Assembly (NCBI GenBank): GCA_016841965.1
Contig: JAEANN010000016.1
Location: forward strand, 103,305 to 143,271
Length of the DNA stretch: 39,967 bases
From: Candidatus Roseilinea mizusawaensis
Lineage (GTDB): Bacteria; Chloroflexota; Anaerolineae; J036; Brachytrichaceae
Direction of reading: 5' to 3'
Part shown: positions 10,786-39,738 of the stretch, in pieces
Numbering within the stretch: the first letter of the stretch is position 1
How the letters are laid out: the number at the start of each line of letters is the position of its first letter
Notes under the pieces: generated by a model
Told to the model about the DNA's origin: nothing
Databases searched by the model: none
What the model saw: the letters and a program-made list of their open reading frames with translations, nothing else
Translations under genes and position numbers: made by a program

Positions 10786-11951
10786 AAGTATTGTTGATAG
10801 GCGCCGGCGCCGTAGGCGGTTGGATTGGCGCTCATCTGGCGCGCAGTGGTCAATCGGTCACGCTGGTCGGGCGCTCTGCTTTTGTAGACGCCGTGCAGGC
10901 GCGCGGCCTGGAAGTGCTGTATCCCTCTGGCCAACGGTGGGTGACGCACACCCTGCGCGCTGTGGAAACGATCGATGCGGCGATGCAGTCGCAGGCGCCG
11001 TTCTACGCGCCGCCCTACGACGCTGTGCTGGTGTGTGTCAAGGCCTATGACGTGGCGCAGGTGGTCGAGGCGCTGCGCGCAACACAGTCAACCTGGAATC
11101 GCGCCGCGTCGAATTGCGCCGCCACGCCGGTGGTGGCATTTCAAAATGGCGTGGGCAGCGAGGAGCAATTTGCCGGCGCGTTTGGGGCGGCGCGGGTGAT
11201 CGCCGGCACACTGACCAGCCCGGTATCACTGGTCGCGCCGGGTGTGGTGCGGCTGGCGCGCGTTGGCGGCGGCATCGGCCTGGCCCCCTGCGCCGGCCGT
11301 TTGCCCGACCTGTCCTCGCGCGCCGTCGAAGCGGCGCTTGGTCAGCCCGCGCCCGATGCGTTGATCGCCCTGGTCGATGCGCTGCGTCAGACCCTGCTGC
11401 GTGTGCGGGTTTATCGCGACCCGCGCGCCATGAAATGGTCGAAGCTGCTGCTCAATCTGATCGGCAATGCCAGCAGCGCCATTCTCGACTTGACGCCGGC
11501 CCGGATCTACGCCGATCCACGCCTGTTTCGATTGGAGATGCGCATGCTGCGCGAGGCGCTGGCTGTGGCGGGCGCGGCCGGCATTCGCATGGTGAATTTG
11601 CCCGGCGCGCCGGCAGCCTGGCTGGCCGGCTTGATCCACGCGCTGCCCGACTGGGCGCTGCGGCCGGTGTTGCGGCGCTCGATTGCGCGCGGGCGCGGCG
11701 ACAAAATGCCCTCGTTCTATTACGATGTGCCGCGCGCCGGCGCTGTGTCCCGCTCGCGCTGTGAAGTAGCCTGGCTCAACGGGGCAGTGTCGGCGCTGGG
11801 CCGGCAACTGGGGGTTGCCACGCCGGTCAATGCCGCCCTGACCGATGTGCTGACCGACCTGGTGGCCGGCCGCGATGATCCGGCGGGATGGGCCGGCCGC
11901 GTGGATCGGCTGGTTGAAGTCGTTGCCAGTCGGGAGACAGACGACAGATGA
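10782..11951 (+). CDS. panE: Ketopantoate reductase family protein (PanE/ApbA)
   Basis: 389 residues. The N-terminus MKVLLIGAGAVGG is the NAD(P)-binding GxGxxG Rossmann motif. The C-terminal helical domain has MKWSKLLLNLIGNASSAIL, which carries the conserved Lys and Asn of ketopantoate reductases, and ends with LGVATPVNAAL. The family reduces 2-dehydropantoate to pantoate in pantothenate/CoA synthesis, but related enzymes use other 2-keto acids. It is longer than the usual 300 or so residues, mainly through an insertion around 95-105 and a longer helical C-terminal part. It overlaps the GT39 gene by ATGA, an odd partner for a vitamin enzyme, so operon membership may be opportunistic. No terminator is visible before the convergent gene at 11973. 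Confidence 0.85.
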   Translation: MKVLLIGAGAVGGWIGAHLARSGQSVTLVGRSAFVDAVQARGLEVLYPSGQRWVTHTLRAVETIDAAMQSQAPFYAPPYDAVLVCVKAYDVAQVVEALRATQSTWNRAASNCAATPVVAFQNGVGSEEQFAGAFGAARVIAGTLTSPVSLVAPGVVRLARVGGGIGLAPCAGRLPDLSSRAVEAALGQPAPDALIALVDALRQTLLRVRVYRDPRAMKWSKLLLNLIGNASSAILDLTPARIYADPRLFRLEMRMLREALAVAGAAGIRMVNLPGAPAAWLAGLIHALPDWALRPVLRRSIARGRGDKMPSFYYDVPRAGAVSRSRCEVAWLNGAVSALGRQLGVATPVNAALTDVLTDLVAGRDDPAGWAGRVDRLVEVVASRETDDR

Positions 11952-11972
11952 CAGATGGCTGCCTGTCAATCG

Positions 11973-12338
11973 TCAATGCTCCCAATCGTCAATCTGGCAA
12001 TCGTCAATTGCTGGGTTGATCTGTTGCGCGACAATGGTTTCGATGGCTGTCAGCACGGCGGGCAATTCGGCGGGGTCTTGCAGGTCAAACAGCACGGTGA
12101 TGGTGGCGCTGCGCTCGACCAGCATCAGCGCGTCGCGGTCGAGCACGGGAGCGGTGGTTTCGCGGGCCGGTTCGGTCATGTAGGCGATCGTTGCTTTCAG
12201 CCGGCCGCTGTTGTCGATGGCCACTTCCCACACCGTGTCTTGCTCGCGGCGGGCGATCACAGCGTCGCCGCAGGTCACATCGAAGCCGGCGGACTCAAAA
12301 GCAGCCGTGAGGATGTCGGCGTCCAGTGTGAATGACAT
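11973..12338 (-). CDS. Hypothetical protein, 121 aa, coupled to PLD gene
   Basis: I do not recognise this protein. It is acidic and lacks a signal peptide or membrane helix. It has an alternating strand/helix pattern: TVWEVAIDNSGRLKATIAYM looks like a beta hairpin, and PAELPAVLTAIETIVAQQ a helix. The start is the ATG at 12338, which shares its A with the TGA stop of the upstream PLD gene (TGATG), so it is translated with that gene and probably works with it. The last codons (IDDCQIDDWEH) are encoded by a short direct repeat (AATCGTCAAT, three copies at about 11967-12009), so the C-terminus may be recently extended by repeat growth. Confidence 0.65.
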   Translation of the reverse strand: MSFTLDADILTAAFESAGFDVTCGDAVIARREQDTVWEVAIDNSGRLKATIAYMTEPARETTAPVLDRDALMLVERSATITVLFDLQDPAELPAVLTAIETIVAQQINPAIDDCQIDDWEH

Positions 12339-13441
12339 CAGCGATCGACTCCTTTGTTCCAGTCCTTCTCGAACGCTTCGAGCATACGCTGAATGGCCGG
12401 CTGGTCCGAGAGCAGAATTCCCAGCTCGCGGTTGAAGTCGAGTGAGGTGGTGGTGATGTTCTCCGAGCCGGTGTAAGCGAACACACCATCGGCCACAAAC
12501 ATCTTGGCGTGGATGTATGGGCTGCGCACATAGCGCACTTTGACGCCGCCGGCCTGTAGCGCGTCCAGCCCTTTGCTCTCGCCGGTTGTGGAGGGCGAGG
12601 TGATCAAACGCACCGTCACCCCACGCTTGACCGCCTCGGTCATTAATGCAATCTGGCGCGTGTCCTCGGCCACTTCGGCGTACACCTCCAGCGTGCGCGT
12701 GGCGGCGTTGATCACGCTGTTGATCCGCTCGCGCGAATTGACCGGACTCCATACCAGATGCGGGCGCTGCGGCGTGAATGCTTCGCGCTTCCAGTCTGCC
12801 TCGAATGCGGCGGCGACTTCGGCGACATCGGCTGGGTCGCGGGTGATGACCAGCAGTTCGCGGTTGCGGGTGAACGCGGCTTTGGTCATGTTCGCCGTCA
12901 TGATGACGGCCAGATCGTCGATCACGAAACTCTTCTCATGCGTAAAGCGGAAAGTGGGGTTTGTGTACTTGACATCGACGCCGGCCTGTTTGAGCTTGTC
13001 GAACATCTGTTTGGTGGTGCCGGCGCCGCCGAACGGCTTTTCTTCCAGCATGGCGCGCACGTCTGCCCCGTTGCGCATCGCCGACTGCATGGCGTCGATC
13101 ACCTGCTCGTCGGTAAGCAGATAGACCTTCATGTACACGCGCCGGCGGGCCTGGGCGATCATATCCAGCAATTGTTGCTCGCTGTCTTCGGGATAGATGT
13201 GCAACTCGATGCCGGTGGCGCCGGGCAATCCTGCCGTCTCGGTGGGGGTGGCCGGCGGGGTCGGGGCAGGCTGCGGCTGCGGGAAGAGCTGATCGCGCAG
13301 CGCGAGAAAGCCGACCAGGATCAGCCCGGCGACCAGCGCGATCACCTGCGCCTGGCTGACGCCCCTATTTGCACGTTTGCTGGACGCCGGCTTCTTTCTG
13401 GGCTTGGGTGTTGGATCAACTTTGGATGACGAGCGTTTCAT
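12338..13441 (-). CDS. Membrane-anchored phospholipase D-like protein
   Basis: 367 residues with a basic N-terminus, one membrane helix (VIALVAGLILVGFLAL, about residues 32-47), and two PLD half-domains. Each half carries an HKD-type motif: FRFTHEKSFVIDD followed by NMTKAAF, and SPYIHAKMFVADG followed by GSENITTTS. Together they would form one active site with the two His acting on a phosphodiester. Members include phospholipases, cardiolipin synthases and nucleases. The order Hx-Kx4D-x6-N fits the general PLDc_2 group, so the substrate is open. The anchor and Pro/Thr-rich linker suggest that it acts outside the cytoplasm. It overlaps the unknown 121-aa gene by one base. Confidence 0.85.
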   Translation of the reverse strand: MKRSSSKVDPTPKPRKKPASSKRANRGVSQAQVIALVAGLILVGFLALRDQLFPQPQPAPTPPATPTETAGLPGATGIELHIYPEDSEQQLLDMIAQARRRVYMKVYLLTDEQVIDAMQSAMRNGADVRAMLEEKPFGGAGTTKQMFDKLKQAGVDVKYTNPTFRFTHEKSFVIDDLAVIMTANMTKAAFTRNRELLVITRDPADVAEVAAAFEADWKREAFTPQRPHLVWSPVNSRERINSVINAATRTLEVYAEVAEDTRQIALMTEAVKRGVTVRLITSPSTTGESKGLDALQAGGVKVRYVRSPYIHAKMFVADGVFAYTGSENITTTSLDFNRELGILLSDQPAIQRMLEAFEKDWNKGVDR

Positions 13442-13507
13442 TGGGCCTCCTGGAGACAGACGATGCGCGTGTGTTGCGCATTCAGCATCGCGTGTTGGGC
13501 AGGACGG

Positions 13508-15442
13508 TCAGGTTTTTGGGGAGCGGGTGTTGCGCTTGAAGTTCAACGCCGGCAGCCCGCGCTGATAGACCCACCATTCTGCCATCAGCACAACCAGCGC
13601 CAGCGCTGCCAGCCATGGCCAGATCTCGCGCTGAGAGGGCGCCATCTCTGCGCCGGCTGCGGGAGCGAATTCTGTTCTGCCGGCCATGGCTTGCAGGTTC
13701 GGCATGATGTTCGACTCGGCCGGATTGATGAAGTTGACGGCGAAGTCGCTGCGTGTGGGCGCGCGCACGCCGCTCACAAGAGCCTGATAGATGCCTAGCT
13801 GGTCGGTGTCTGCAAAGCCGCGCTCGCCCACTGTGACGAGCGATCCATCCGGCAGTTGCACTGTGCTGTTGGGCGGCAGCGCCACAGCGTCGCCCGGCCT
13901 GACTGAGGCGGGGATGCTTGCGCCCTGGGCCGGCGCCAGCCACTCGACCGTATTGGCGATCAGGACGGGAAAGGCAATTTGCAGCGGCAGATCGCTGCGG
14001 CGCAGATCGAACGGGATGACCACGATGCGCCCGGCTGCCTGGGGGCCTGCCGAAGGCGACTCGATGGGCTGACCCGCGTACAGCGCCGGCCCGCCCTGCG
14101 TTTGAACCACCGACTTCAACCAGGCCGGCGCATCGAGCAGCGCGGCGCGCTGGATGTTCACCCCGCGCCAGTCCACGGCTTCCAGGATGGGGTGCGCTTC
14201 GACGCGCACATACTCGGTGTTGCTGAACTGGCCGGTGACGGTGAATGGGGCCGCCGCGCCGACGTACAGCGCGTTCGCTTCTGGCGGCAACGTCATGCTC
14301 AGGCCATCGAGGATGAACAGATCGAAGCCGAAATCACGGCCGGCGCTGAAAAGCAGGCCGGCCTCGGATAGCGACGGCGGCGTCACAGCGCGGGTGACTT
14401 GCAATTCGGGCAGGGCTGCCAGGGCTTGTTCCAAAAACAGGTTGCCCCGGCTGAGCAGCAGGGCGCGGCGGATGTTGCGCACCGTGTTGACGGCATAGGC
14501 GGTGTCGTCGATGGCGAGGGCATTCCCCGCGCCGGCCTGGAGTGTGGCTTGGATTGCAGCAGCGCGCAGATCGAGTCCGTTCACCGTCCACGCGACCGAT
14601 TGCCCGGCCGGCACGACCAACGTGCGGGCATCGGTCAGCGCGCCATCCACGCGCAACGACACCAGCGCCTCGCGCGGCTGGCTGCCCATGTTCTCCACGC
14701 GCACCAGCGCGGCCAGCCCTTGCAAGGTGCGCCGCAGCGACAGGGTGGTGATGGCGAGATTATCGCCCGAAGTGCCGATAGGGATGAAGCGGGCGGTCTC
14801 GCTCAGCAACCTCAAGGGCGAGGCCGGCGTTGCCGGGTCTGTTTGGTTCAAACCTGTGTCGCCGGCGCCGTCGCCGATGACAGTAATCAAGGCCGGTGCG
14901 CTGCCGGCGATGGCTTGCGCCAGCGCAATTGCCGCGCTCCAGTTGGCCGGGTGCAAAGAGGGCTGCACGGCGTCCAGCGCGTTCAGCAATTCGGCCTTGT
15001 TGTCGGTTGCGGCCGTCAAGGCGCGCGGCGCATGGTCAACCAGAATGATCGACATACTATTGTCGGGGCCGAGTTGCGCCACCATGTCACGCACGTAGGC
15101 GCGGGCTGCCTCGAAGCGCGAGGGCGGCACGTCGGTGGCCTGCATCGATGCCGAAGCGTCGAGCAGCACAATGTGACGCCCGCTGACGCCGCCAGGCGCT
15201 TCGATGTAGGGCCGGCTCAGCGCAAAGACCAGAAAGGCCAGGGTGAGCAGTTGCAACAGCAACAGCAAGTTGCGCCGCAGTCGCTGCCATAGGGTGTTGG
15301 CTTCGCGGTCGAGCAACACCTGCCGCCACAACAGCGTGCTGGAGACAGTCTGTTCGCGCCGGCGCAACCGCAGCAGGTACAGCAGCACAATCGGGATTGC
15401 AATGAGAGCGAACAAGAGGGCCGGCGCGTTCAACAGGTTCAT
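13508..15442 (-). CDS. BatA-like membrane protein with von Willebrand A domain
   Basis: 644 residues. The N-terminus MNLLNAPALLFALIAIPIVL is the BatA-type N-terminal helix. It is followed by a second helix (about 59-78) and a VWA domain starting HIVLLDASASMQATD; D-x-S-x-S is the metal-ion-dependent adhesion site. The C-terminus has another membrane helix (WPWLAALALVVLMAEWWVY). BatA-type proteins belong to MoxR/DUF58/VWA gene sets linked to envelope stress or complex maturation. The DUF58 gene lies 22 bp upstream on the same strand, as expected. A MoxR AAA+ ATPase, the usual first gene, is not adjacent; the upstream neighbour is an isopropylmalate-type dehydrogenase. Confidence 0.85.
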   Translation of the reverse strand: MNLLNAPALLFALIAIPIVLLYLLRLRRREQTVSSTLLWRQVLLDREANTLWQRLRRNLLLLLQLLTLAFLVFALSRPYIEAPGGVSGRHIVLLDASASMQATDVPPSRFEAARAYVRDMVAQLGPDNSMSIILVDHAPRALTAATDNKAELLNALDAVQPSLHPANWSAAIALAQAIAGSAPALITVIGDGAGDTGLNQTDPATPASPLRLLSETARFIPIGTSGDNLAITTLSLRRTLQGLAALVRVENMGSQPREALVSLRVDGALTDARTLVVPAGQSVAWTVNGLDLRAAAIQATLQAGAGNALAIDDTAYAVNTVRNIRRALLLSRGNLFLEQALAALPELQVTRAVTPPSLSEAGLLFSAGRDFGFDLFILDGLSMTLPPEANALYVGAAAPFTVTGQFSNTEYVRVEAHPILEAVDWRGVNIQRAALLDAPAWLKSVVQTQGGPALYAGQPIESPSAGPQAAGRIVVIPFDLRRSDLPLQIAFPVLIANTVEWLAPAQGASIPASVRPGDAVALPPNSTVQLPDGSLVTVGERGFADTDQLGIYQALVSGVRAPTRSDFAVNFINPAESNIMPNLQAMAGRTEFAPAAGAEMAPSQREIWPWLAALALVVLMAEWWVYQRGLPALNFKRNTRSPKT

Positions 15443-20123: not shown

Positions 20124-20368
20124 ATGGGGGATTCATCTGCTGCGCCAACGATGAAAGGCAAGTTGATCGGGCGAGGGCGCACGGGCGAGGTGTACGCCTG
20201 GGGGAGCGATGACGCGCGTGTGCTGAAGCTCTACAACTCTGGCTTGCCGGTAGGCTGCCGAATGAGTGGATGCTGCCGGTCGCAGTTGCCCGCGCCAACG
20301 AGTCTATCTCTGAGGAGCGCGCCCGGCTGATGCCGTGCATATCTCGTACAATGCCGGCCCATGAGTGA
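20124..20368 (+). pseudogene. Phosphotransferase/kinase-like remnant with internal deletion
   Basis: The first 35 codons encode KLIGRGRTGEVYAWGSDDAR then VLKLY, a glycine-rich nucleotide loop and beta-strand Lys of an aminoglycoside-phosphotransferase/protein-kinase-like fold. The frame then shifts, and the new frame reads LAGRLPNEWMLPVAVARANE followed by SISEERARLM, which resembles the C-terminal end of the same family, to a TGA at 20366-20368. The whole catalytic core between them is missing. This is best read as one gene reduced by an internal deletion. It overlaps the next gene's start by eight bases. Confidence 0.65.
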
Positions 20369-21392
20369 TATGGCTTCACCTGTCATTGCGGTGCTCATCG
20401 GCCGCAATCACTATCGCCGCATGTTGAGCGAGGCGGCCTGGGACAGGCTGCGTCGCATGGCGCGCATCATCGAGCACGAGGGTGGCGAGCCGGCCCAACA
20501 TGCTGATCTGTTACGTCTGCTGCCCGACGCCGATGCCTGCCTGACAAGTTGGGGGGTGGCTGCACTGGATGCCGAAGTGCTGGCAGCCGCGCCGCGCTTG
20601 AGGATGATGGCCCATATGGGCAGCAGCGTGAAGCGTTTTGTGTCAGACGCCGTGTGGCAGCGCGGTATGCGCGTGACATCCGCCGGCCTGGCGCTGGCCG
20701 AAGACGTGGCAATCACCACCGTTGGGTTGATGATTGTGGGCATGAAGCGCGTCTGGCCGCTGGCGCTGAATTTCCGCGCGGGCGGCTGGCGCGAACGCGC
20801 GCGCGCAGGCGATCAACGTCTCCCCATCTGGCCGGCGCGCGAGTTGCGCCACAAAACGGTTGGCATTGTTGGCGCCAGCCGGGTTGGCCGGCACGTCATT
20901 CGATTGCTGCAGCCGTTTCACACCCGAATCCTGGTCTATGATCCGTTTGTCTCGCGCGCAGACTGCGAGGCGATTGGCGCCGAGAAGACCGAGCTTGACG
21001 ACTTGCTGCGGCGCTGCGATATCTTGTCGTTGCATGCGCCGTCGACGCCGGCCACCCGCCGTATGATCGACGCCGGCCGGCTGACGCTGCTGAAGGATGA
21101 CGCGCTCATCATCAACACCGCGCGCGGCGACTTGATCGACGAGCCGGCCCTGATCGCCGAGTTGAGCGCGGGACGCTTCTTCGCGTTTCTCGATGTCACC
21201 GATCCCGAGCCGCCCGCGCCGGACAGCCCGCTGCGCCGGCTGGAGAATGTCGTGGTCATACCTCATATCGCCGGCTGCATCGAGGACTGCACGCACATGG
21301 GCGACGTGGCTGTCGAAGAGCTGCGGCGCTTCCTGGCCGGCGAGCCGGCGCTGTACCCAATCTCGCCCGACATGTTGCAGCACATGTCGTAG
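20361..21392 (+). CDS. D-isomer 2-hydroxyacid dehydrogenase
   Basis: 343 residues. The NAD-binding motif is VGIVGASRVGRHVI. The catalytic Arg is in INTARGDLIDEPAL, the Glu in DVTDPEPPAPDSPL and the His in VVIPHIAG; all three are present. The family oxidises or reduces D-2-hydroxy acids (glycerate, phosphoglycerate, lactate and others). The low conservation of the substrate domain does not allow a precise call. The gene begins inside the end of the kinase-like remnant. Confidence 0.9.
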   Translation: MSDMASPVIAVLIGRNHYRRMLSEAAWDRLRRMARIIEHEGGEPAQHADLLRLLPDADACLTSWGVAALDAEVLAAAPRLRMMAHMGSSVKRFVSDAVWQRGMRVTSAGLALAEDVAITTVGLMIVGMKRVWPLALNFRAGGWRERARAGDQRLPIWPARELRHKTVGIVGASRVGRHVIRLLQPFHTRILVYDPFVSRADCEAIGAEKTELDDLLRRCDILSLHAPSTPATRRMIDAGRLTLLKDDALIINTARGDLIDEPALIAELSAGRFFAFLDVTDPEPPAPDSPLRRLENVVVIPHIAGCIEDCTHMGDVAVEELRRFLAGEPALYPISPDMLQHMS

Positions 21393-21540: not shown

Positions 21541-23172
21541 ATGAATCGACCTTCGATCACGTTCCAACCCCGCAGCGGCAAGTATCTTCTACACGGCGTC
21601 AGCGCGCTGGCCGAACTGATCCGTCCGACAATCGGGCCGACATTTCGCATGGTTGCTTCGGAGCAGGTTGCCGGGCGCAATCGCCCGCCAGAATTGTTGA
21701 GCGACGGCGCAACGCTGGCCCGGCGCATGATCCAACTCAGCAACGATCCTGCCGATGTGGGGGCCATGTTGTTGCGGCAAGCAGTGTGGCAGGTGGGCGA
21801 GCGCGCCGGCGACGGCACGGCTACCACTGCTGTGCTGGCGCACGCGATCATCAAGGAAGCGTACAAGCGGGTTGCGGCCGGCGCCAACGCTATGCGCATT
21901 CGTGTCGGCATCGAGCGCGCGATGGATGTGGCTGTGCACTCTCTGCGCGACCAGTCTACGCCCGTCAGCGCCAGGCGCGATCTGACGCGCATCGCCGACT
22001 CGCTGTGTCACGATGAAGAGCTGGCCCGCTACCTGGGCGAGGCGTTCAACATTATCGGCGCGGATGGATTCGTGGAGGTGCAGACATCGCGCGGGCGCAA
22101 GATCGAACGCGAATATGTGGAAGGCGCGTGTTGGCGCAGTTCTGTCGGCTATGTGTCGCGCAACTTTGCCGAAAACACGACCACGCCGCGCATCACCATG
22201 CAAGATGCGTCGGTAGTGCTGATCGACGGCAAGCTGAATGATGTGGATGTGGCAGGCCGAATTTTCACGCGCTTATTGCAGGCCGGCCACAAGAACATCT
22301 TCCTGGTCTGCCGCGAGATCTCGGAGACTGTCCTCAGCGTGATGACTGTCAATCACCACAAAGGCAATCTCAAGTTTCTGCCGGTCAAAATGCCGGTCAT
22401 GGAAAGCGACAAGCTGGCGATGTTTGAGGATATCGCGGCGCTGACCGGCGCGACGGTGTTTTACCTCGGCGAGACGAAAGATGTGTCGTTGTTCACGCCG
22501 GACATGGCCGGGCGGGTGCGACGAGCCTGGGCTGACGCAACTCAATTTGGCCTCATCGGTGGGCGCGGCAACCCCAGGGCTTTGCGCGAGCATATCAAGA
22601 CGCTGCGCGCCAGCATGACGCAGGCCAAAGACAAAGACAAAACGGAGGAACAGCGCATGACGGCTGTCCGGCAGCGCATTGCCCGGCTGATGGGCGGCAT
22701 CTGCGTGTTGAGCATCGGCGCGCCGACAGAAGCGGAACAGAAAGCGCGGCAGCAAATCGCCGAGCGGTGCGTGCGCGCCATGTACGCCATCGTGCGCGGC
22801 GGCATTGTGCCGGGCGGCGGGGCGGCCTTTTTGACTTGCCAGAATGCGGTGCGCAAGCTGGCGTTCGACGAGCCGGATGTGCAGGCCGGCGTCGATTGTG
22901 TGGCGCGCGCGCTTGAATCACTGATGCGCGCAATTGCCCGCAATGCCGGCCATCATCCCTCAACCATTGTGGCGCGGGCGCGGCTGGCAGGGCAGGGATT
23001 CGGACTGGATGCGCTGTCTGGCCAGATTGTCAACATGCGCGAGGCCGGCATTGTGGATAGCGCCGAGGTTCTGGAGCAGGTCTTGCGCGCAGCAGGAAGT
23101 GTGGCAGCCACAACCGTGACGACCGATGTGGTGTACCGGCACAAGAAGCCCCAGGAAGCCGTGCAGCCCTGA
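21541..23172 (+). CDS. Divergent GroEL-like chaperonin paralogue lacking the D398-equivalent
   Basis: 543 residues, full GroEL length, chosen from the ATG at 21541 (MNRPSITFQPRSGKYLL). Equatorial, intermediate and apical regions all align. ATP-site Asp residues equal to E. coli D52 (LLSDGATLAR) and D87 (AGDGTATTAVLA) are kept, as is the later GGG (PGGGAAF, 425-427). The position equal to D398, 16 residues before that GGG in an ungapped stretch, is Arg 409. D398 is needed for ATP hydrolysis in GroEL, so this protein may bind ATP without turning it over. The usual GPKGRN is replaced by GPTFRM, and the C-terminal GGM tail is missing. No groES is adjacent. It is probably a specialised paralogue. 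Confidence 0.88.
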   Translation: MNRPSITFQPRSGKYLLHGVSALAELIRPTIGPTFRMVASEQVAGRNRPPELLSDGATLARRMIQLSNDPADVGAMLLRQAVWQVGERAGDGTATTAVLAHAIIKEAYKRVAAGANAMRIRVGIERAMDVAVHSLRDQSTPVSARRDLTRIADSLCHDEELARYLGEAFNIIGADGFVEVQTSRGRKIEREYVEGACWRSSVGYVSRNFAENTTTPRITMQDASVVLIDGKLNDVDVAGRIFTRLLQAGHKNIFLVCREISETVLSVMTVNHHKGNLKFLPVKMPVMESDKLAMFEDIAALTGATVFYLGETKDVSLFTPDMAGRVRRAWADATQFGLIGGRGNPRALREHIKTLRASMTQAKDKDKTEEQRMTAVRQRIARLMGGICVLSIGAPTEAEQKARQQIAERCVRAMYAIVRGGIVPGGGAAFLTCQNAVRKLAFDEPDVQAGVDCVARALESLMRAIARNAGHHPSTIVARARLAGQGFGLDALSGQIVNMREAGIVDSAEVLEQVLRAAGSVAATTVTTDVVYRHKKPQEAVQP

Positions 23173-23431
23173 ACTGACGATTCACCCACGCATCTCTCAC
23201 GTTGGAGTCTGCATCCATCACGGCGTTCCGCCACCGTTCCCAGGCAGGTCAGCCCATCACAGCCGCGATCTGGTGAATTGGCATCGCATCTGCACGGGTC
23301 AGAAGATTGCTTGCCATTGATCCATCGCCTGTTCGACGACCATGGGCGCGCATGGGCGTCGCAAGCGTCGCAGGCGTCGCAAGCGTCGCAGGCGTCGCAG
23401 GCGTCGCAAGCGTCGCAGGCGTCGCATTTGT
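23173..23431. other. Intergenic stretch before the tRNA, with tandem repeat
   Basis: Apart from the 9-bp tandem repeat described separately, I see no gene or convincing regulatory site here. Confidence 0.5.
23356..23426. repeat. 9-bp tandem repeat, about 8 units
   Basis: GCGTCGCA followed by A or G, eight times head to tail. The last base runs A,G,A,G,G,A,G, suggesting growth by an 18-bp unit plus a slip. It ends 5 bp before the tRNA promoter -35. Confidence 0.95.
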
Positions 23432-35264: not shown

Positions 35265-35298
35265 AAGGGCGGTCTGCACGACCGCCCTTCGCTTTTTT
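35265..35298 (+). terminator. Rho-independent terminator
   Basis: AAGGGCGGTC and GACCGCCCTT form a 10-bp stem around TGCAC, followed by CGC and six T. It serves the plus strand, i.e. the decayed FN3 gene, and is still intact. Its last T is also part of the NB-ARC gene's stop codon. Confidence 0.85.
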
Positions 35299-38135
35299 CA
35301 AGCCGGCGTAGAAGGCTGGCTGTTGAGCACGCCGGGGCATGACCAGCGCGCCTCGGCGTCCTCAAGCGTTTCCAGCCAGCCGGCGACTTCACCGGCGCGA
35401 TAGTGTTCGAGTGTGCGCAGGTCGCTCAGGCTAAGCTGGGCAAGCCGGCGCGCTTCGGCCCAATCAGCCTGCTCGGCTCGAACGCGCGCCAACCCAAAGC
35501 GATGAAGCGCAGCCAAATCTGGGTAGTGATTCTGCCCGGCAATTTCCAGGCCGCGCGCAAAGATTGCGCCGGCCTCGGCGATCTGGACCTGTGCCAGGCA
35601 GCACTCGCCCAACTCGATCCGTACGCTGGCCTTGTACCAGGTCAGTCCGTTTTGCTCGGCCAGTTGAAGCGCCTGGAGCAGATGGCTGTGCGCTTGTTCC
35701 CACCGTTTCTGCCGCATGTTCAACACACCGAGCGCGTGTTCCACCAGCGTCAGGTTGTGCAAGCTGGCCAGGTCACGGGCAATCGCGTGCGCCTCTTCGT
35801 AATAGGCCTGGGCTTGCGCATAGTCGTGTTTGTCCACGGCGATCACACCCAGCGCGATGAGCGCGTAGGCGATACGATCGCGAAAATCAATCTGGCGCGC
35901 CAGGGCCAGGCCGGCCTGAAGATGCAGGCTGGCCTCATCGTGGCGATTGCGCTGCCGCAGCAAAGCGCCCAGATTAAGCAGCGCGTTGATCTCTGCCACC
36001 GGCTGCCCAAGCGTGTGAGCCAGCCCGGCGCTTTGCAGGAGCGTGGCTTCGACCTCGTCATGGCGGCCGAGCTGGCCCAAGGCGGCTGTGCGTGTGTGTA
36101 GAATCTGTAAGCGCAACGCAGCCTCGTCGGGGGAGGGAGTCAAGTCAAGCGCCTGATCACAGATTTCTACGGTCTGCCGGGCGTCGCCGGCCAGCCAATG
36201 CGCCTGCGCCAGTGTTGCCAGCGCAGTTGGCAGCGCCTGCGGCGCTTCAGAGCGGGCATATTCAACCGTTTGTTGAAGCTGCGCAATCGCGCCGGCCACG
36301 TCATGATGCCAAAGCAACACCCGTCCGCGCTGAATGTCAAACCGGCAGCGCTCGGCCGGCCCGTGTGAGCGGAGCTGCCGTTCGGCCATATCCAGCAGGC
36401 GCTCGGCCAGCGCGCGCACCCCACGTCGGTCCAGGCAATCGAACAATGTCTGACAGAAGTGCGCGGCTGCCTCGGGCCAGTCCAGATCAACAGAGATCTG
36501 AGCAGCGGCCAGGGCGGCCGTCCATTGTGCGGGGGGCAGGGGGCATTGAGCCGGCGAGTACACCACGCGCATGGCGTGTTCAACCAGCGCGCGGCGGGCG
36601 CGCTCGCTGATGTGCGCCTGGGCTGCGTGTGGCTCGGCCAAGCGCCAGTCGCGGATGGCCGCGTGAATGCTATAACAACCGTTGTAATGCTGGATCAAGC
36701 CGCTATCCACCAATCGGTCAAGCGCGGCCAGAGCCGATGAGGTGTCGGGGATGACCGCGCGCAACACACTCAGGGCTGTCTCTTCATCAAAGACGGCTGG
36801 TTTGGCCGGCAATTCACACAGAGCCAGAAGTCCTTGACGGTGCGCCTCGGGCAGAATGGACACGCTCAGCGCAATGCTTTCGCTCAGTGAGGCATTGTCT
36901 GCTGCCAGACGATCTATGCCCAACGGTAGGCGCAAGGCCAGGCGCGCCTTCGCGTCGCGCAGGGCCTTCAGCGCGGCTGCCACGCGACGCGGCTGGCCGG
37001 CGTGAGATTCGTGCCGCAGATAGTGCCCGACCAGGGTGAGCGCCAGCGGTAACCCACCGCATGCTTCGGCCAGCGCGCGCATGTCGTGGTAGTGGTCGGC
37101 CAGCAAGCCGGGCGCAAGACTGTCCAGCAGTGACAGACTGTCTTCCAAGCTCAGATCAGGTATAGCGATACACCCGCGCGCCTCGGCGAAATTGACGGCC
37201 AGTTCGGGCAGTGTGGTGGAGAGCAAGTAAACACATTGCGCGTTGCCCACGAGTAGCGGCTCGACGTGCGCCATGTCCCAGACATCATTGAGCGCCAATG
37301 CCAACCGCCGTGTGCCGAGCGCCTGACGCACGATTTGCGCGCGTTGGTGCGGCGTCTTGAAGTGTTCCAGGTCGTGCAGGCCGAGGCCAAGCGCTTGGCC
37401 CCATTCTGTCAGGATTGCCGATAGGTCTGGTTGTGGGCCAAGGGTGGCCCACAGCACGCCGTCGGGATAGTGCGTCTTGAGAGAGGGTGCGCTCGCCAGA
37501 TGTGCCAGCAAGGCGCTTTTGCCGCTGCCCGGCAGACCGTGAAACGCCAGCCGGCGGCATCCAAACGTCAACAGCGAGTCGGCCAGTTCAAGCAGCGCCT
37601 GGCGCCCAACGAATGGCCCATGCGGCGCCGGGGCGGTATTGAGTGGGCCTGCCGGGCGTGGGGCAGAGGGGGATTGCACGAAGAAGCCGGCCCCGAGTGG
37701 CGCTTCCGCCCCGCGCAGGAGATCGCCCAGCGCGTCGAGCGCTTGTTGTAACGCGCGCCGGCAACTGACTGCCTCAATGCACAACAGGCGCGCCACGTCC
37801 TCAAGCGCGCGACCTTCCAGGTAGTGTTCGGTCAGTGCGATATAGCCGCGCCAGGCGCGGTCAGGGGGCGTGGGCGGCGCGCCGGCCGGCCGCAGGCGTG
37901 CAATCGCTTCCAGCACGATTCCACGCAGAGCAGTGGGGGCGTCTTCTCCGCGTGCCTGCCGGCGTTGAGCAACAACTGGGCTGCGCGCCAGCGGATGCGC
38001 GTTGAGTTGGGCCGGATCGTGCCAGGCGCGCAGCAGGCGGCGCAGCGATTTGCGCCCATAGATGTCCTCTACGGCGTCCTCTACGCTGGAGCGTCGTGGC
38101 AAGGTCTTGCGGTGCGTCGTATGGTGTGTGGCCAT
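35298..38135 (-). CDS. NB-ARC (AP-ATPase) protein with C-terminal TPR repeats
   Basis: 945 residues from the ATG at 38135; an in-frame start at 38321 would add 62 residues that look non-coding. Layout: an N-terminal helical domain (about 30-140; its middle part, LARLLCIEAVSCRRALQQAL, looks HTH-like), then an NB-ARC ATPase with P-loop GLPGSGKS (about 200-207), Walker B-like LALALNDVWD (about 278-287, Asn replacing the first Asp of the usual DD) and the GLPLAL motif (about 361-366). A winged-helix part follows, then roughly ten TPR-like helical hairpins to the C-terminus. Such STAND proteins are signal-sensing switches, often regulators or immune sensors. A truncated copy of its N-terminal domain lies at 34476. 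The ligand is unknown. Confidence 0.85.
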   Translation of the reverse strand: MATHHTTHRKTLPRRSSVEDAVEDIYGRKSLRRLLRAWHDPAQLNAHPLARSPVVAQRRQARGEDAPTALRGIVLEAIARLRPAGAPPTPPDRAWRGYIALTEHYLEGRALEDVARLLCIEAVSCRRALQQALDALGDLLRGAEAPLGAGFFVQSPSAPRPAGPLNTAPAPHGPFVGRQALLELADSLLTFGCRRLAFHGLPGSGKSALLAHLASAPSLKTHYPDGVLWATLGPQPDLSAILTEWGQALGLGLHDLEHFKTPHQRAQIVRQALGTRRLALALNDVWDMAHVEPLLVGNAQCVYLLSTTLPELAVNFAEARGCIAIPDLSLEDSLSLLDSLAPGLLADHYHDMRALAEACGGLPLALTLVGHYLRHESHAGQPRRVAAALKALRDAKARLALRLPLGIDRLAADNASLSESIALSVSILPEAHRQGLLALCELPAKPAVFDEETALSVLRAVIPDTSSALAALDRLVDSGLIQHYNGCYSIHAAIRDWRLAEPHAAQAHISERARRALVEHAMRVVYSPAQCPLPPAQWTAALAAAQISVDLDWPEAAAHFCQTLFDCLDRRGVRALAERLLDMAERQLRSHGPAERCRFDIQRGRVLLWHHDVAGAIAQLQQTVEYARSEAPQALPTALATLAQAHWLAGDARQTVEICDQALDLTPSPDEAALRLQILHTRTAALGQLGRHDEVEATLLQSAGLAHTLGQPVAEINALLNLGALLRQRNRHDEASLHLQAGLALARQIDFRDRIAYALIALGVIAVDKHDYAQAQAYYEEAHAIARDLASLHNLTLVEHALGVLNMRQKRWEQAHSHLLQALQLAEQNGLTWYKASVRIELGECCLAQVQIAEAGAIFARGLEIAGQNHYPDLAALHRFGLARVRAEQADWAEARRLAQLSLSDLRTLEHYRAGEVAGWLETLEDAEARWSCPGVLNSQPSTPA

Positions 38136-38388
38136 TTTGCTGGCGTAATCAGTCCTCCCCGCACGACACTCATTGTAGACCAATATCCTGAGAAGTGGGG
38201 GGCATACGCCGCGCACGAGGGGAAACCATTCGTTGCCACGGCGCGTCGGCGAGGGGGCAAGGCCTGAGTGCAAATTGTGATCAAACTGTGAGCAAAATGC
38301 GCTGGACATTCTGCACGTCATTTGACAGCATATTTTTTATCGCATGAGTTGGCTTGCTCAAACCCAACGTGTTATTCCGGACGTGAAG

Positions 38389-39738
38389 ATGAAGAACATA
38401 CTGATTTTTATGTCGCTAGTGCTGGCAGCATGTAGCACAGCAGCCGGTGCATCGCTAATGGCAAACGCGTCGCCGACTGTGCAGGCGAGGCGCGCCGGGC
38501 CGGCCCAAGGGGCGACCGTCGTGCCGCGTGCGTGGGCGCCGCTGGCCGGGGCTGCCGTCACCGACACACGGCCTGTGTTGAACAAGTGGGCGTTGTGGAC
38601 GAACGGCGTGCAACTGCGCGGCGCGGACATTTGGCAACGCATTCGCGTGCCCGCCCTGGACCAAAACTATCTGGGGGATGGCTACATCGGCCCGCCCTAT
38701 TCCCAGCAAGACTTTAACCGCCTGGCGCAGTTGGGCGCGAACTATGTGGTGCTGTCGGTGCCCGGCCTGTTCACCGAGCGCCCGCCCTATCAGCTCGATG
38801 TCAATGCGCAGGCGCATCTGGATCAACTGCTAGAGCAAGCACGGCTGGCCGATCTGTTTGCGGTGATTGCCTTTCGCACCGGGCCGGGGCGCAGCGACTT
38901 CACGTTTTACCGCGACGGCGCCGGGGTGTGGTATCCGCCGGAGTTGCTGATCGAAGATGTATGGACGAACCAAGCGGCTCAGGATGCCTGGGTGCAGATG
39001 TGGCGGCACACGGCCCAACGCTATCGGGGGCATCCGGTGGTGGTGGGCTACGAGATCATGGTGGAGCCGAACGCGGATGAAGTGGCGTTGGACATCTACG
39101 ACCCGCAGCAGTTCTATCCGCAGTATGCCGAGACGACGTATGACTGGAACCGCATGCACCGGCCAATTGTGCAGGCGATTCGCGAAGTGGACGCCGATAC
39201 GCCCATTCTGTTGAGCGGGATGGGCTGGGGGTCGGTGTTTTGGTTGCCATATTTGCAGCCGGTGACGGCGACGCGCGTGGTGTATGCAGTGCATCAGTAC
39301 ATGCCGTTTTTGTACACGCATCAACCGGTTGGCGCGAACCGGCCTTACCCAGGTGTGTTTGATGTGGACTGGGACAACCAGCCGGACACGTTCAACTGGG
39401 GATGGATGGCGAACTATTTCAGCCGGCTGGACACATTTGCCGCGCAGCATCCAGGCCCGCAAACCGTGAGCGAATTTGGGGCGTCACGCTGGTCGCCGGG
39501 CGCAGCGGACTTTATGCGCGACCAGATGGATGACTTCGAGCGGCGCGGCATGAATTATGCAATCTGGCTGTGGGACTCGACCTGGGAGCCGTGGCGAACC
39601 TGGGGCAGCAAGGCGATGAACTATCTGTTTGGGCCGGATCCGGCCAACTACACCGAAGTGCCGAACGCCACGATGACAGTGATTGTGCAGGCATGGGGGC
39701 GCAACACGTTGCGACCGTCACAGTTCAGGCAGCCCTAA
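38389..39738 (+). CDS. Glycoside hydrolase family 5-like lipoprotein
   Basis: 449 residues from the ATG at 38389. The N-terminus MKNILIFMSLVLAACS is a lipoprotein signal with Cys 15 after VLAA. After a short linker comes a (beta/alpha)8 cellulase-like domain: YEIMVEPNADE contains the acid/base Glu (about 226, in the place of the NEP motif), VHQYMPF the conserved His/Tyr pair, and TVSEFGAS the nucleophile Glu (about 362), followed by NYAIWLWDSTWEPW. GH5 enzymes cut beta-glucans or mannans; the substrate is not deducible. An upstream ATG at 38344 would add 15 residues and mask the signal peptide. Confidence 0.85.
   Translation: MKNILIFMSLVLAACSTAAGASLMANASPTVQARRAGPAQGATVVPRAWAPLAGAAVTDTRPVLNKWALWTNGVQLRGADIWQRIRVPALDQNYLGDGYIGPPYSQQDFNRLAQLGANYVVLSVPGLFTERPPYQLDVNAQAHLDQLLEQARLADLFAVIAFRTGPGRSDFTFYRDGAGVWYPPELLIEDVWTNQAAQDAWVQMWRHTAQRYRGHPVVVGYEIMVEPNADEVALDIYDPQQFYPQYAETTYDWNRMHRPIVQAIREVDADTPILLSGMGWGSVFWLPYLQPVTATRVVYAVHQYMPFLYTHQPVGANRPYPGVFDVDWDNQPDTFNWGWMANYFSRLDTFAAQHPGPQTVSEFGASRWSPGAADFMRDQMDDFERRGMNYAIWLWDSTWEPWRTWGSKAMNYLFGPDPANYTEVPNATMTVIVQAWGRNTLRPSQFRQP

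Follow-up and report, generated by a model that had tools for sequence, protein, structure and literature searches.

A divergent chaperonin gene and its genome

The DNA analyzed here, referred to as the window, is a 39,967-nucleotide stretch of a 3.86-Mb genome assembly from the Anaerolineae (Chloroflexota). Positions 21541 to 23172 of its forward strand form a stop-free ORF for a 543-residue divergent group I chaperonin (Cpn60) paralogue. In a phmmer search against PDB sequences the product aligned end to end with Thermus GroEL (7 to 537, E = 9e-78) and also matched E. coli GroEL (7 to 532, E about 1e-66), and it passed the Pfam model PF00118 (Cpn60_TCP1) with 157.6 bits over residues 23 to 535, against a cut-off of 34.3. 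The GroEL equivalog model TIGR02348 was missed, at 332.8 bits versus a cut-off of 582.1; the looser subfamily model NF009487 was passed (357.9 versus 352). An in-frame ATG further upstream, at 21193, would run into the preceding gene, a D-2-hydroxyacid dehydrogenase (20361 to 21392), and the start at 21541 is supported by a 91% identical relative from another genome of the genus, which begins at the same residue. At the locus of that relative (L128), the dehydrogenase gene is apparently missing between the chaperonin gene and a HAD gene that the two loci share. Elsewhere in the window, a short tandem repeat at approximately 23355 to 23426, immediately before a tRNA-Met gene, gives the repeated residues CDACDACDA in an ORF of the minus strand, and a minus-strand gene at 35298 to 38321, encoding a 1,007-residue NB-ARC ATPase with TPR repeats, adjoins a GH5 cellulase-like gene (38344 to 39738).

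The window protein shares with canonical GroEL its full-length homology, the GP, GDG, and GGG motifs, and D495, but it differs in several conspicuous places. The GPKGRN of GroEL is replaced by GPTFRM, and the GGM repeats at the C terminus are replaced by a Pro-ended tail, VVYRHKKPQEAVQP (23128 to 23169, forward strand), with HKKPQEAVQP standing where GroEL has its GGM tail. The sequence-only reading of this DNA had described both losses, along with the lack of a nearby groES; both are borne out by alignment, and no groES was found within the window. Every testable point of that description held. No CIRCE heat-shock operator was found near the chaperonin gene. That reading had also proposed looking for a canonical groESL elsewhere in the genome, and a groES-groEL pair is indeed present on another contig (G000:C24), with Asp398, a GGM-type tail, and an imperfect CIRCE (3 mismatches) 5' of groES. 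The genome holds three chaperonin genes in all, the third being a further divergent cpn60 on contig C27, in which Asp52 is replaced by Ser and Asp398 by Arg. This third gene (in L146:8050-10919) begins approximately 16 bp after a MalG-type permease gene and has a 4-bp overlap with a GH10 xylanase gene.

Residue 398 and the nucleotide pocket

Residue equivalences were taken from a HMMER alignment and, independently, from aligning the protein to E. coli K-12 GroEL with MAFFT. In both, the segment GAPTEAEQKARQQIAERCVRAMYAIVRGGIVPGGG of the window protein aligns without a gap with the corresponding E. coli segment, and the catalytic Asp398 is paired with Arg409 (codon at 22765 to 22767, forward strand), the same pairing that had been made earlier by eye. 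The equivalents of Asp52 and of the Mg/ATP ligand Asp87, also said earlier to remain, are Asp55 (21703 to 21705, forward strand) and Asp91 (21811 to 21813, forward strand); the loop ahead of Asp55 is longer by three residues than in GroEL. An AlphaFold2 model built from four sequences had a mean pLDDT of 41 and was not used.

Genome searches for relatives covered the Chloroflexota, and loci were picked by similarity to the window protein and do not form a random sample. A chaperonin tree from which columns 52, 90, and 398 had been left out separated 70 divergent from 30 canonical rows on one fully supported branch (100). By its sequence, the window gene is a member of a monophyletic family of divergent paralogues that extends across the Chloroflexota beside normal GroEL; its product falls inside the divergent clade and carries the family's own short C-terminal tail, which in most members is of the type HHRKPxxxxxP and usually ends in Pro. 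Relatives are common in the Anaerolineae and present in other classes of the phylum. Four matches inspected in a plasmid search, which considered a mobile origin, carry GPKGRN and GDGTTT like ordinary GroEL, with Asp at position 398 visible in three (L267 was not read at 398), and they gave no hint of such an origin.

Residue 398 changed at least 15 times across the tree. The divergent family lost Asp398 repeatedly, and in one Anaerolineae clade (34 rows, support 99) its replacement by Arg became fixed. The window protein belongs to this Arg clade, in which Arg occupies position 398 in 33 of 34 rows, the exception being a Glu in L019. In the wider divergent family this position is occupied by Arg, Lys, Glu, Gln, Ala, Ser, Asn, Gly, or His, and the members that keep Asp (L089, L094, L082 to L084, L086, L087, L090, L070, and L071) are scattered on the tree, several of them branching early. 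A sequencing error was ruled out, since the 91% identical gene from the second genome has the same Arg and the pair shows purifying selection; a dN of 0.043 against a dS of 0.56 (dN/dS about 0.08) indicates that the window gene is maintained. Asp in the orthologues or a single-genome error, which had been named earlier as the findings that would overturn the claim, did not materialize, and conservation of Arg across a whole clade is stronger than had been claimed.

The rest of the pocket, in the equatorial domain, presents a different pattern. T30, G32, P33, D87 (34/34), T91, G414, G416, and D495 are invariant in the Arg clade, which also keeps the positions for adenine, ribose, and the phosphate loop and, in 26/34 rows, Asp52. 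Besides D398, the changed positions are T90 (Ala in 31/34) and I150/S151, and A152 has become Cys in 30/34. R197, K327, R395, E409, and R501 of GroEL, which form its allosteric salt bridges, are not retained. The earlier suggestion that nucleotide binding may survive without hydrolysis agrees with this distribution of kept and changed positions. In E. coli GroEL, the D398A mutation leaves about 2% of the ATPase activity; the large apical movement is slowed, and unfolded protein is released more slowly (PMC3813556). The same catalytic residue is removed in the window protein, but by a natural and conserved Arg rather than an engineered Ala. Arg at this position may make the protein dwell in an ATP-bound state; conceivably, Arg409 could also form a pair with Asp55 or Asp91 that keeps the intermediate domain down.

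We also considered whether the ATPase might be retained, through another acid or a rearranged water, the protein being a chaperonin that cycles normally and has a special client. The Asp52 and Asp87 equivalents would be compatible with such activity, and Glu408 adjoins Arg409; however, Glu408 is conserved in only 19/34 rows, T90 has been replaced by Ala in most of the clade, and the wider family has a variety of residues at 398. We regard retained hydrolysis as quite unlikely.

Still less probable is that the protein joins canonical GroEL rings as a subunit and adjusts their ATPase, an option raised in the sequence-only reading that found no support here. Nearly all genomes with a divergent copy also have canonical GroEL, and catalytically impaired subunits could slow a mixed ring. 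Yet the window protein is only about 33% identical to the canonical GroEL of its own genome, the interface salt-bridge positions (R197, E409, R501, K327) are altered, the loop before Asp55 is longer, the divergent genes are not linked to groESL, and a single genome has more than one divergent subfamily, with several being usual. The chlamydial GroEL2 and GroEL3 are likewise divergent group I chaperonins additional to a canonical one, but these belong to a different phylum and their models match the window protein far more weakly (97.9 bits for NF038370 and 139.2 bits for NF038369, each against a cut-off of 600). We know of no link between the chlamydial proteins and propellers.

Propeller and sugar-transport genes near the divergent chaperonins

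At 29/56 divergent loci the chaperonin gene is immediately followed, on the same strand, by a gene for an Asp-box beta-propeller, compared with 0/20 canonical groEL loci (Fisher p about 1e-5, uncorrected for shared ancestry). No other gene follows the chaperonin as often in the divergent family, including at loci that have no transporter nearby. The propellers match the Pfam families BNR (PF02012), Sortilin-Vps10 (PF15902), and YCF48 (PF14870), and fall into lengths of about 280 to 340 and 580 to 720 residues. They share their repeat with these families but differ in having a blade of their own, NGGRAWRE, which is nearly invariant, in traveling with a chaperonin, and in lacking an evident signal peptide; by inspection their N termini look cytosolic, and a secreted propeller was rejected on this basis. 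One genome (G041) has three divergent chaperonin genes, each followed by its own propeller gene.

The association extends to whole genomes. Among 71 genomes drawn from the class, a strong propeller match was found in 17/19 genomes with a divergent chaperonin versus 3/52 without one (Fisher p 2e-11, uncorrected for ancestry); G305 and G330 have the chaperonin and no strong propeller match, and G323 has a propeller with no divergent chaperonin detected. The propeller tree also mirrors the chaperonin tree (Mantel Spearman 0.57, 0/2000 permutations, uncorrected for ancestry), a congruence that can arise from linked genes without physical contact. Two loci, L070 and L071, combine an adjacent propeller gene with a retained Asp398; therefore, the propeller link does not need the loss of Asp398.

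About half of the divergent loci have no adjacent propeller gene, and none was found in the window or at its closest relatives (L006 to L008). The clade of the window keeps the propeller in an unlinked position: in the same genome, it lies at G000:C3:40007-40873, about 85 kb from the window chaperonin gene, and in G022, from the same family, an unlinked propeller gene shares its strand with a MalF-MalG pair and is located downstream of it. Because of this lack of linkage, the partner cannot be seen from the window alone, and we infer the partnership in this clade from the relatives, whose neighborhoods suggest a dedicated beta-propeller partner. A decayed propeller gene with three stop codons was seen in one genome (L138, G017:C1:1117991-1118812), downstream of an intact Arg398 chaperonin gene and separated from it by a phosphodiesterase-like gene; the same genome has an intact propeller elsewhere.

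A second recurrent feature is location in sugar ABC-transporter loci, often shared by the chaperonin gene and its adjacent propeller gene. MalF/MalG permease genes lie within 9 kb at 20/41 divergent loci, compared with 2/20 canonical groEL loci and 0/20 other regions, and at 9/57 divergent loci fewer than 400 bp separate the chaperonin gene from the end of a permease gene upstream on its strand. GH10 or GH2 genes adjoin some of the divergent copies. At the sugar-utilization loci of three relatives of genus g8 (L129, L130, and L131), two homologous proteins of 735 to 741 residues (cluster c5; for example, L129:6768-8975 and 11876-14101) are encoded near the chaperonin; the product of L129:6768-8975 gave no Pfam match.

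These neighbors, and the overlap of the contig C27 copy with its xylanase gene, would suit a holdase or trap that cannot hydrolyze ATP and serves many proteins, such as exported glycosidases and solute-binding proteins from the sugar loci, with the propeller link as a by-product of operon structure. The propeller, however, is the commonest next gene even where there is no transporter, and it co-occurs with the chaperonin genome by genome. We consider a chaperonin with many clients unlikely.

Possible role of the chaperonin and its propeller

The explanation that we favor, tentatively and at somewhat short of an even chance, is that of a chaperonin that binds ATP, is impaired in hydrolysis, and works for a dedicated propeller partner. 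The divergent chaperonin would assemble into rings and bind ATP, with hydrolysis very slow or nil, and we propose that it would for this reason act as an ATP-gated holder or assembly chamber of long lifetime rather than as a cycling foldase. Its main client or obligate partner would be the propeller, and the pair may serve the sugar-transport loci. The fuller form of this proposal, a two-protein system spread over the phylum in which a naturally hydrolysis-dead group I chaperonin provides an ATP-locked chamber for one beta-propeller, as an independent counterpart of CCT and WD40 proteins, is possible but less secure.

The propeller may be client, cofactor, or scaffold, each of which is compatible with the present sequence evidence. 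The client reading is the most natural, because eukaryotic CCT handles WD40 propellers, the folding of which by CCT is described in two reports (PMC8544692 and PMC6599039). CCT/TRiC resembles the present case as a chaperonin functionally tied to cytosolic beta-propellers, a tie that is putative here, but differs in being a group II, hetero-oligomeric chaperonin with an active ATPase, and in that its propellers are of the WD40 rather than the Asp-box type.

The main rival is a cofactor or scaffold role, in which the propeller would act as a lid or adaptor in the place of GroES on a static, ATP-bound ring, with the whole complex serving as scaffold or sensor at sugar-uptake loci. No groES adjoins the divergent genes where this was looked at, and the apical groove positions through which GroEL binds GroES and substrate are altered (V264 to Gln in 19/34, L234 to Glu or Tyr in 8/34). 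Adjacent copies keep one partner each, and the near invariance of the NGGRAWRE blade is what might be expected of a binding surface. The two propeller size classes, however, are unlike a fixed lid, and we know of no co-chaperonin that is a beta-propeller. A cofactor role is, in our judgment, somewhat unlikely, and we retain the propeller as a dedicated client as the preferred reading.

Among open-license papers, we found no description of the divergent family or of a chaperonin-propeller pairing. The holdase function proposed for the window protein in the sequence-only reading is plausible as a hypothesis, and the recurring chaperonin-propeller pairing across the Chloroflexota is the more important finding. 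Chaperonins are thought to require ATP hydrolysis for cycling, and in bacteria GroEL is a generalist. A family that has repeatedly discarded the catalytic Asp, with the ATP pocket and selection kept, would show what a chaperonin is able to do without turnover. The recurrent pairing with a small cytosolic propeller suggests a bacterial chaperonin for one partner rather than for general protein folding, and it offers a testable case of a single-partner chaperonin in bacteria.
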